A stretch of DNA of 42,283 bases, from NCBI GenBank assembly GCA_001510075.1, contig LFEN01000084.1:1-42283 (forward strand), given 5' to 3'. A program made the translations under genes and the position numbers. This DNA is from Alphaproteobacteria bacterium casp-alpha2 (GTDB taxonomy: Bacteria; Pseudomonadota; Alphaproteobacteria; Rhodospirillales; Casp-alpha2). The notes beneath the pieces are model-generated. The model was not told where the DNA came from. It searched no databases and worked only from the letters and a program-made list of their open reading frames with translations. Shown here in pieces: positions 1 through 40,877 of this stretch (positions within the stretch are counted from its first letter, which is position 1; every line of letters starts with the position of its first letter).

Positions 1-2
1 CC

Positions 3-785
3 CCCCCGGCACCCCTACCGGCCAAGATCATACCTGTAGAAAAAAAAGCCCCCGCCGTAGAGCCGGTTCAAAAAAAAGAAGTCGCCGCCGTCACGCCCGT
101 TCCGATAGATACAAAGCCCCTGCCAAAAATCGTTATTGTCATCGACGACTTAGGCATCGACAAATCCCGCACCGCCCGGACCATTCAGCTGCCGGGGCCG
201 TTGACATTATCTTTTATGACCTACGCCACCGAGCTTTCGAGCCAAACCGAAGCCGCCCGCAAAGCCGGGCACGAGTTGTGGATGCACATTCCCATGGAGC
301 CGGGAAGCACCGATGTCGATCCGGGACCGAATGTATTGTTGACGGGCATTCCCGAAGCAGAGCTTCTAAATAGCCTTAATTGGAACCTCGACCAGTTCAG
401 CGGCTATGTCGGCGTTAACAATCACATGGGCAGCCGTTTTACCGCCGACCGGGCAGGGATGAACATCATCATGAAGGCGTTAAAAAAACGCGGACTGTTT
501 TTTCTCGATTCCATAACCACCGGAAAAACGGTGGGCCGGAAAGCCGCCAGAAAATACGGCGTACCGTTTGCCGGTAGAAATATTTTTCTCGATCACCAGG
601 ACGATCTTCAGAGTATCGAAAAGCGCTTGCGGGAAGTGGAAAAATTGGCGCGAAAGAACGGAACCGCCATTGCCATCGGCCATCCCCGCGAAGCGACCCT
701 GAAGGCGCTGGGGGCGTGGCTGAAAGAAATCGAGGCCAAGGGGTTTCGACTGGTGACATTATCAAGCGTCATTAAAAAACCTTGA
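3..785 (+). CDS. Divergent polysaccharide deacetylase family protein (5' truncated)
   Basis: The reading frame is open from the window edge, so the N-terminus is missing and 260 residues are visible. The first 40 or so are a Pro/Ala/Lys-rich linker. The catalytic domain then starts with KIVIVIDDLGID (about residues 42-53), the hallmark of the divergent polysaccharide deacetylase family (Polysacc_deac_2, YibQ-like). Further family motifs are HIPMEP near residue 95, NNHMGSRFT near 139 and IGHPREAT near the C-terminus. Members are envelope proteins with a NodB-like fold, usually anchored by an N-terminal membrane helix and proline-rich linker, which fits what is seen. The substrate is not known from sequence. 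The stop codon overlaps the -35 element of the next gene's promoter. An internal start near 201 would cut off the IDDLG motif and is rejected. Confidence 0.85.
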   Translation, partial: PPAPLPAKIIPVEKKAPAVEPVQKKEVAAVTPVPIDTKPLPKIVIVIDDLGIDKSRTARTIQLPGPLTLSFMTYATELSSQTEAARKAGHELWMHIPMEPGSTDVDPGPNVLLTGIPEAELLNSLNWNLDQFSGYVGVNNHMGSRFTADRAGMNIIMKALKKRGLFFLDSITTGKTVGRKAARKYGVPFAGRNIFLDHQDDLQSIEKRLREVEKLARKNGTAIAIGHPREATLKALGAWLKEIEAKGFRLVTLSSVIKKP

Positions 786-812
786 CCTTCCAGTGGCTGG
801 AAAGGGTTTAAT
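782..812 (+). promoter_or_regulatory. CueR/MerR-type promoter-operator for the CopZ-like gene
   Basis: A -35 box TTGACC (782-787) and a -10 box TTTAAT (807-812) are separated by 19 bases, the long spacer typical of MerR-family activated promoters. The spacer contains the dyad TTCCAG-TGG-CTGGAA (788-802). The left half ACCTTCC matches the known CueR/HmrR half-site; the right half GGAAAGG differs slightly from GGAAGGT. Copper-responsive copA and copZ promoters have this architecture. The downstream gene encodes a metal-binding HMA protein, which supports the reading. The regulator gene is not in the window. Confidence 0.7.
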
Positions 813-842
813 AGGATATGAAATCCTTATCGGGAGATTATT

Positions 843-1064
843 ATGGCAAAGACCTACAATGTTCTGGGCATGACCTGCCAAGGTTGCGCCAATGCGGTGA
901 GCAACGCGATTAAAGTAGCCGTTCCCGACGCAACGATTGACGTAAATCTGGAGGGCAACGCCGTAACCGTCGAAAGCACCGGGGGGGCCGGGGGCGCAGA
1001 AGACGATTCCATCGTCAAAAAAGCCGTCGAAGGGGCCGGGTTCGAATACGCGGGCGCTGTTTAA
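843..1064 (+). CDS. copZ: Heavy-metal-associated domain protein, CopZ-like
   Basis: This 73-residue protein consists of a single HMA domain. The metal-binding loop GMTCQGC (residues 9-15) carries the MxCxxC motif that binds Cu(I) or similar soft metals, and the C-terminal part ends in the usual helix (VKKAVEGAGFEYAG). A glycine-rich insertion, GGAGGAED, sits in the last loop. Free-standing HMA proteins of this size are cytosolic copper chaperones that deliver metal to P1B ATPases or to regulators. No ATPase gene is adjacent. A Shine-Dalgarno-like GGGAG (832-836) precedes the ATG, and a CueR-like promoter lies just upstream, which favours copper over other metals. The stop codon overlaps that of convergent trpE. 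Confidence 0.8.
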   Translation: MAKTYNVLGMTCQGCANAVSNAIKVAVPDATIDVNLEGNAVTVESTGGAGGAEDDSIVKKAVEGAGFEYAGAV

Positions 1065-5485: not shown

Positions 5486-5572
5486 TCGTCGTTTAAGCAT
5501 TTGAGGCTGGCCTTATCGGTCTTGAAGGACTAAAAAGCGCACCTGAAACAGATAACGCATCCGGAAGATTCC

Positions 5573-5896
5573 ATGACCGAAGTCGTTCTTATCATCCACC
5601 TGATCCTGGCCATAACGCTTGTCGGCCTTGTCCTTATGCAGCGTAGCGAAGGCGGCGCGCTGGGCATGGGCGGCGGCGGAGGCGGGGGCATGGGTGGTTT
5701 TATGACCGGTCGGGCCGCTGGTGACCTACTGACCCGCTCGACAGCAATCGTGGCGGCATGTTTCATGGCGACCAGTCTGACCCTGGCCATCCTGGCCGCT
5801 AACACGCGGTCCTCCGGCTCGCTTCTCGACCAACCCGCCCCGACAACGCAAGCACCGGCCAAGCCCGGCCTGCCCACCGTACCACTGGCGAAGTAA
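5573..5896 (+). CDS. secG: Preprotein translocase subunit SecG
   Basis: The 107-residue protein has the SecG plan: a first membrane helix (about residues 3-21, ending VLMQRSEGG), a cytosolic glycine-rich loop and a second helix (about 53-76). SecG assists the SecYE channel and SecA in protein export. The loop here is unusually glycine-rich (seven consecutive Gly around residues 34-40, preceded and followed by Gly-Met pairs). The C-terminal tail is Pro/Ala/Thr-rich. The gene lies between tpiA and pyrG, a standard neighbourhood. The start is fixed by the helix, which begins almost at once. Confidence 0.93.
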   Translation: MTEVVLIIHLILAITLVGLVLMQRSEGGALGMGGGGGGGMGGFMTGRAAGDLLTRSTAIVAACFMATSLTLAILAANTRSSGSLLDQPAPTTQAPAKPGLPTVPLAK

Positions 5897-5901
5897 GGCA
5901 A

Positions 5902-5921
5902 GCGATCTTGAAAGAGATCGC
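5902..5921. other. Small perfect hairpin between secG and pyrG
   Basis: GCGATCT (5902-5908) and AGATCGC (5915-5921) form a perfect 7-bp stem with a 6-base loop, immediately after the secG stop. On the plus strand it is followed by a run of eight A residues, not T, so it is not a normal intrinsic terminator for secG. It may stabilise the mRNA end or be incidental. Confidence 0.4.
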
Positions 5922-5938
5922 CAAAAAAAACGCCTTAA

Positions 5939-7624
<1,686 letters not shown>

Positions 7625-40179: not shown

Positions 40180-40877
40180 GCCAGAAACCGCCAGATCACG
40201 TCCGCCCGAGCTTGCACTCGCTCGAAGAGTTGCTCGGCCATCAATTCAAGAATCCAGATATCCTGCAACAGGCCCTGACCCATTCCAGCGCCTCGAAGGA
40301 CCGGGCGCAATCGAATGAAAGGCTCGAATTTCTGGGCGACCGGGTGCTCGGGCTGGTTTGCGCCGGCATGCTGCTCGACGCTTTCCCGGATGAAAGCGAA
40401 GGCGAGCTGGGATACCGGTTTTCCGGCCTGGCGCGGGCGGAATCCCTGGCCCGCGTCGGTGCTGCCATCAATCTGGCACCGCTGATCGTTCTGTCCGAAG
40501 GCGAAGAAGCTACCGGCCGGGATAATCCCGCCATCCTCGCCGATTGCTGCGAGGCGGTTATTGCGGCGCTGTTCCTGGACGGCGGCCTGGAGAAGGCGAA
40601 AGCTTTTATTCAGCAACATTGGCGACCGTTGATGGCGGAAAACCCGTTACCGCCCAAGGACCCCAAAACGATGCTTCAGGAATGGGCGCAGGGGCATGGG
40701 CTTCCCTTGCCGAAATACGAGGTCACGGCCCAGGAAGGCCCGACCCATGCGCCGACCTTTACGGTTCGCGTCACGGTGCATGAAAAAAAACCAACCAGCG
40801 GTGAAGGATCGTCCAAGCAGGCGGCGGAGCAGGCGGCGGCTGAAAACATGCTGAATTCCATGGGAGCAGGGAAATGA
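40176..40877 (+). CDS. rnc: Ribonuclease III
   Basis: The 233-residue double-stranded RNA endonuclease processes rRNA precursors and mRNAs. The catalytic signature NERLEFLGDRVLGLVCAGML lies around residues 48-67. A second acidic site is in LADCCEAVIAALFLDGG, where the Glu and Asp bind metal. The C-terminal dsRNA-binding domain begins DPKTMLQEWAQGHGLPLPKY and ends SSKQAAEQAAAENML. It overlaps lepB and era by ATGA at both ends, a classic coupled arrangement. Confidence 0.97.
   Translation: MSQKPPDHVRPSLHSLEELLGHQFKNPDILQQALTHSSASKDRAQSNERLEFLGDRVLGLVCAGMLLDAFPDESEGELGYRFSGLARAESLARVGAAINLAPLIVLSEGEEATGRDNPAILADCCEAVIAALFLDGGLEKAKAFIQQHWRPLMAENPLPPKDPKTMLQEWAQGHGLPLPKYEVTAQEGPTHAPTFTVRVTVHEKKPTSGEGSSKQAAEQAAAENMLNSMGAGK

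Follow-up and report, generated by a model that had tools for sequence, protein, structure and literature searches.

Does the CopZ-like chaperone gene at the left end of this contig belong to a copper regulon whose regulator and ATPase lie elsewhere in the genome, or does it only appear to stand alone? The window, 42,283 nucleotides long, is the whole contig (G000:C84:1–42283) and comes from a genome assembly of 1,772,183 bases in 84 contigs that is 79.6% complete. A preliminary description read the gene, which has a CueR-type promoter before it and neither a copper ATPase nor a regulator beside it, as a copper regulon member sitting apart from its ATPase. We propose instead that the element is very probably an internal CueR/HmrR promoter of the common copA–cueR–deacetylase–copZ cluster, cut by the contig edge with its right end retained. 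The features concerned are the following.

3–785, + strand: divergent polysaccharide deacetylase gene, 5′ end lost at the contig edge (PF04748, 265.2 bits)
782–787, + strand: −35 box TTGACC, in which the TGA at 783–785 doubles as the deacetylase stop codon
785–805, + strand: predicted CueR/HmrR-type operator, ACCTTCC-AGTGGCT-GGAAAGG (signal match and inverted repeat)
788–802, + strand: perfect inner dyad TTCCAG-TGG-CTGGAA (arms TTCCAG at 788–793 and CTGGAA at 797–802)
788–806, + strand: promoter spacer of exactly 19 bases
807–812, + strand: −10 box TTTAAT
832–836, + strand: likely ribosome-binding site GGGAG, 6 bases 5′ of the ATG, called from the sequence
843–1064, + strand: gene for a CopZ-like single-HMA-domain protein of 73 amino acids with a GMTCQGC motif (PF00403)
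1061–2581, − strand: trpE-like gene, convergent to the copZ-like gene (open reading frame; 80% identity to a G003 protein that we take, from its sequence, to be TrpE)

The promoter itself is as first described: the 19-base spacer, the ACCTTCC half-site and the TTCCAG-TGG-CTGGAA dyad are all present at 782–812, and the −35 box does lie on the deacetylase stop codon, an overlap shared by 10 of the 27 loci that bear an operator (window counted; the sample includes the best 80 of 238 places). A TTTAAT box 19 bases from TTGACC also precedes copZ in G004 (L069), G096 (L079) and G108 (L078). The right operator arm is imperfect, with an extra A (GGAAAGG against GGAAGGT), and the transcript is predicted to start at about 819–820. 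We scored candidate sites over 22 positions (TTGACC, ACCTTCC-N7-GGAAGG and TATAAT, a consensus of promoter and CueR half-site letters) and fixed the operator threshold at 16 of 22 after the score distribution had been seen. The site at 782 scores 20 and no other place on either strand of the window exceeds 14; among 1,280 shuffled upstream regions, one attained 16.

The published HmrR signal points the same way: ACCTTCCAG-(3)-CTGGAAGG in a 19-bp spacer (PMC1526738) matches at 16 of 17 positions with one mismatch, making this its top place in the window. The CueR signal, ACCTTCCC-(5)-TGGAAGGT, matches at 13 of 16 positions, a score equalled at one other window place. When up to three mismatches were allowed, the full HmrR signal gave four matches at two places in the window against 0.11 expected, the second place being 40280–40300 with three mismatches. 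A pattern taken from the window's own letters was found in 0 of 100 shuffles; it is circular and is excluded from the evidence. Two further signals were tried and rejected, those of MerR (7 of 14 positions) and ZntR (10 of 22), each at a score attained at more than 2,000 window places. With the HmrR match and a like promoter in 26 of 63 related loci (a sample that includes the best 80 of 238 places), the earlier assignment of a CueR-type operator before a CopZ-like gene stands, and the element is well supported as a putative CueR/HmrR-type operator and promoter.

The gene behind this promoter encodes a single HMA domain, as had been reported (PF00403, 33.9 bits; cut-off 24.8). It shares 53–65% identity with 18 relatives, the portion of the 29 fetched that make up alignment A1, and both motif cysteines are invariant in the 19 aligned sequences. 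The NCBIfam CopZ models stayed under their cut-offs (NF047957, 32.7 bits, cut-off 85; NF033795, 30.4 bits, cut-off 91), as did the CopZ model for the G004 homologue (47.6 of 85), and we therefore use the label CopZ-like. Because a profile of the 19 homologues matches not only copper chaperones in the PDB but also MerP and ZntA HMA domains, the sequence alone does not point to one metal. Residues 45–50 of the protein, STGGAG (window 975–992), are absent from all 18 aligned relatives. At its other end the gene meets the trpE-like gene, the two stop codons overlapping by four bases (TTAA, 1061–1064).

In the MerR family, CueR occupies a dyad within a spacer that is longer than usual; on binding Cu(I) it distorts the DNA, which allows polymerase to start. 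By this scheme, the dyad within the 19-base spacer would be occupied by a CueR dimer which, once loaded with Cu(I), would bend the DNA and let RNA polymerase start from TTGACC/TTTAAT. The resulting CopZ-like protein would bind Cu(I) through its pair of cysteines and pass it on to a CopA pump, both the metal and the partner being presumed. CueR binding at the site and copper induction of the copZ-like gene are thus predictions of the sequence.

What lies upstream is set by the assembly. The contig begins, at window base 1, within the deacetylase gene, whose open frame has 260 amino acids here against 385–412 in the full-length copies adjoining copZ in G001, G003, G004, G006, G007 and G009. No other contig end was found to overlap window 1–150, a point against the proposed reading. 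From the deacetylase through trpE and ppiD, the window keeps the gene order of its same-genus relatives, and the likeness stops after ppiD. The observation that no ATPase or regulator adjoins the gene is correct for the window; it tells little, because the contig ends 842 bases upstream of the gene.

Gene order in the genus suggests what has been cut away. Ten genomes were searched, and seven besides our own have a copZ gene. In six of these (G001, G003, G004, G006, G007 and G009) the genes run copA, cueR, deacetylase and copZ, with trpE following on the opposite strand, the copA of G001 being cut by a contig end. In those six, cueR ends 1,217–2,011 bases before copZ, which corresponds to 375–1,169 bases past the edge of our contig. 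The claim that the gene is a copper regulon member detached from its ATPase is not supported: our contig starts in the deacetylase gene, and the relatives carry cueR and copA just beyond that point. We infer that both genes would be found just past the contig edge here too, and the apparent isolation of the copZ-like gene is most likely an effect of that edge. A false exception is thereby removed, that of a copper chaperone gene which seems detached owing to the point at which an assembly stops.

The remaining genomes of the genus are less uniform. In G008, copA, cueR and an intact deacetylase gene are on one contig (C71), and copZ with a truncated deacetylase gene is on another (C33); one of the two may be chimeric. 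The stretches concerned are L178 (C71) 1–1915 and L068 (C33) 5551–6243, and the start of C71 resembles MazG by eye. In G005, copA and cueR adjoin trpE, and the deacetylase and copZ genes are absent there. G002, which is 74% complete, yielded neither copZ nor a P-type ATPase. Both the split in G008 and the absence of the operator before copZ in two of the seven genomes (G006 and G008) speak against the proposed reading. Separately, a single-domain response-regulator-like gene, read in the opposite direction, separates cueR from the deacetylase gene at L065 7398–7901, and also in G001, G004, G006, G007 and G008; among the six genomes with the joined order it is present in five, the exception being G009, with PF00072 checked for G003 only.

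To place the locus among wider relatives, we combined 30 loci fetched from 150 relatives searched, the best 80 of 238 confirmed places and separately fetched regions. The pooled set holds 102 distinct copZ-type records and rests on those best 80 of 238 places; exclusion of 38 records that had no deacetylase gene directly upstream left 64 loci, including the window. A score of at least 16 before copZ was found in 27 of the 64, or in 26 of 63 when the window is left out. Upstream content was read in the 46 other loci with at least 4 kb upstream, again in this sample with its best 80 of 238 places: cueR and copA in 23, cueR only in 5, copA only in 7 and neither in 11, giving totals of 28 loci with cueR and 30 with copA.

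The operator and the regulator gene went together across these 46 loci (best 80 of 238 places included). An operator was present in 19 of 28 loci with cueR against 0 of 18 without it, a link for which Fisher's test gives 1.8e-6, a value that is no true probability since the rows are related by descent. Conversely, cueR lay upstream in 19 of 19 operator-bearing loci, ending 1,165–1,981 bases before copZ against the 842 bases present in the window, and none of the 11 loci with neither copA nor cueR had an operator (same sample, with its best 80 of 238). The DNA upstream of copA behaved alike: among 28 copA genes scored in the sample including the best 80 of 238 places, 20 had sites of at least 16, that of G003 (L091) reached 15, and the remaining seven were exactly those of the loci that have copA without cueR. 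In this bacterial group, a CueR-type site before copZ accompanies a nearby cueR, so that what lies past a contig edge becomes predictable.

With cueR within 2 kb in all 19 operator-bearing loci, the operator in none of the 18 loci lacking cueR (sample including the best 80 of 238) and the joined order in six of the seven same-genus genomes that have copZ, it is very unlikely that copZ here is a truly detached regulon member with cueR and copA elsewhere in the genome. Such an arrangement would resemble that of copZ1 and copZ2 in Pseudomonas aeruginosa, two CueR-activated genes whose locus tags are distant from that of copA1 (PMC7922089). It would also accord with the separate contigs for copZ and copA–cueR in G008 and with the 11 of 46 deacetylase–copZ loci that have neither copA nor cueR upstream (same best 80 of 238 included).

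The genome itself was then the place to look for further sites and for the regulator, as the preliminary description had proposed. The search for sites brought up a second one, at C48:4330, before a gene for a CopI-like protein; that for a CueR/HmrR gene brought up none, and neither cueR nor copA was found among the 1.77 Mb of assembled bases (79.6% complete). No P-type ATPase was detected in our genome with PF00122 or with the G003 CopA as query, and the same PF00122 search did give matches elsewhere, in 8 of the 10 genus members and in all 14 control genomes. An HMA search of our genome returned one match, the copZ-like gene alone. MerR-type proteins numbered one here against 2–5 matches in each of the other nine genus members. 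The absence of copA and cueR fits a missing segment without proving one. The preliminary description named the lack of a MerR-type copper regulator in the genome as a refutation; with the genome 79.6% complete and the expected place off the contig, the present assembly cannot serve for that test.

The relatives' regulators are recognizable as CueR: all five tested pass the CueR model TIGR02044 (163.2–172.6 bits; cut-off 147.4), the CHGxDRPxCP tail is present in all nine aligned, and the best solved relative of the G003 regulator is Escherichia coli CueR (1q05, E 1.9e-29). The sole MerR-type protein of our genome (G000:C1:8379) was rejected as a CueR; it reaches 56.5 bits with TIGR02044, lies over no NCBIfam cut-off and lacks the CHGDDRPxCP tail. 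It may be a LiuR-like regulator.

These counts bear on a second alternative, that copA and cueR were lost in this lineage, with the promoter and copZ left over or placed under another MerR-type regulator. It would account for the assembled bases holding no PF00122 ATPase, one HMA match and one MerR-type protein (against 2–5 in the other nine members), itself far below the CueR cut-off and without the tail; we consider it highly improbable, given that 20% of the genome is missing, the expected place among it, that metal genes are still preceded by two CueR-type sites which look intact, and that the site agrees poorly with the MerR and ZntR signals. That there is no regulated promoter at all, copZ being transcribed by read-through from upstream, is hardly credible at a site scoring 20 of 22 (next best in the window 14; 1 of 1,280 shuffles at 16 or more) and matched by the same promoter at the corresponding position in 26 of 63 relatives. 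In favour of this alternative, 37 of 64 deacetylase–copZ loci have no such site (both counts with the best 80 of 238 included), no promoter emerged here from a generic sigma-70 scan covering spacers of 16–18, and the bare ACCTTCC-N7-GGAAGGT dyad with three mismatches allowed stays at chance level in the window (2 places found, 1.61 expected), an effect of the extra A in the right arm.

CueR-type sites recur in the genus. In our genome, TTGACCTTNCN7GGAA occurs twice, at the copZ-like promoter and at C48:4330, where the CopI-like cupredoxin gene is followed by a multicopper oxidase gene (TIGR01480, 754.6 bits; cut-off 478.95). The CopI-like protein passes PF00127 and, queried as the part after an in-frame TAG, has its best match in NF051440 at 174.1 bits, below the cut-off of 280. 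That TAG lies near the start of the CopI-like gene in the C48 locus (L177, 4330–6745). Across the 10 genus members, the pattern gave 19 sites against 6 for a reversed control: six before copA, four before copZ (our own included), one before the CopI-like gene, three before cytochrome c genes (called by Pfam for G001 and G003 and by a CASCHG motif for G007) and one each before DUF411, YHS and thioredoxin-like genes, the two others being G004:C104 and G007:C76. The sites before cytochrome c, DUF411, YHS-domain and thioredoxin-like genes (L182, L183, L185, L184, L180 and L179) hint at a wider copper regulon.

Whether the deacetylase itself belongs to the copper response, making envelope remodelling part of the copper cluster, is a further idea, and quite an unlikely one. 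Its basis is conserved order only, the deacetylase gene separating cueR from copZ in many Rhodospirillales-like genomes, as seen in the 64 deacetylase–copZ loci and in cueR lying upstream in 28 of 46 (sample including the best 80 of 238 places), and that order could equally reflect housekeeping synteny. A literature search joining a polysaccharide deacetylase, copZ and copper yielded one paper, an Alcaligenes genome report.

Among known systems, the closest are the HmrR/CueR-regulated actP/copA–hmrR operons (PMC1526738), which share with this locus the ACCTTCCAG-(3)-CTGGAAGG signal in a 19-bp spacer and, with the copA–cueR pairs of its relatives, a regulator gene placed second after the ATPase. 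The present site differs in preceding a chaperone gene behind a deacetylase gene, in the extra A of its right arm and in the absence of a regulator gene from the assembled DNA. Salmonella likewise has a lone copper chaperone gene (COG2608) under a CueR-type promoter whose spacer is 19 bp long, and this gene is described as lying apart from copA–cueR (PMC1526738); in the present locus, by contrast, the contig edge is the most likely cause of the separation. In P. aeruginosa, copZ1 (PA3520), copZ2 (PA3574.1) and copA1 (PA3920) are CueR-activated, the CopZ genes lying outside the copA1 operon (PMC7922089); their genome places are known, whereas the neighbourhood here is cut. Detached copZ genes are thus already on record, and even a truly detached copZ would represent a known arrangement.
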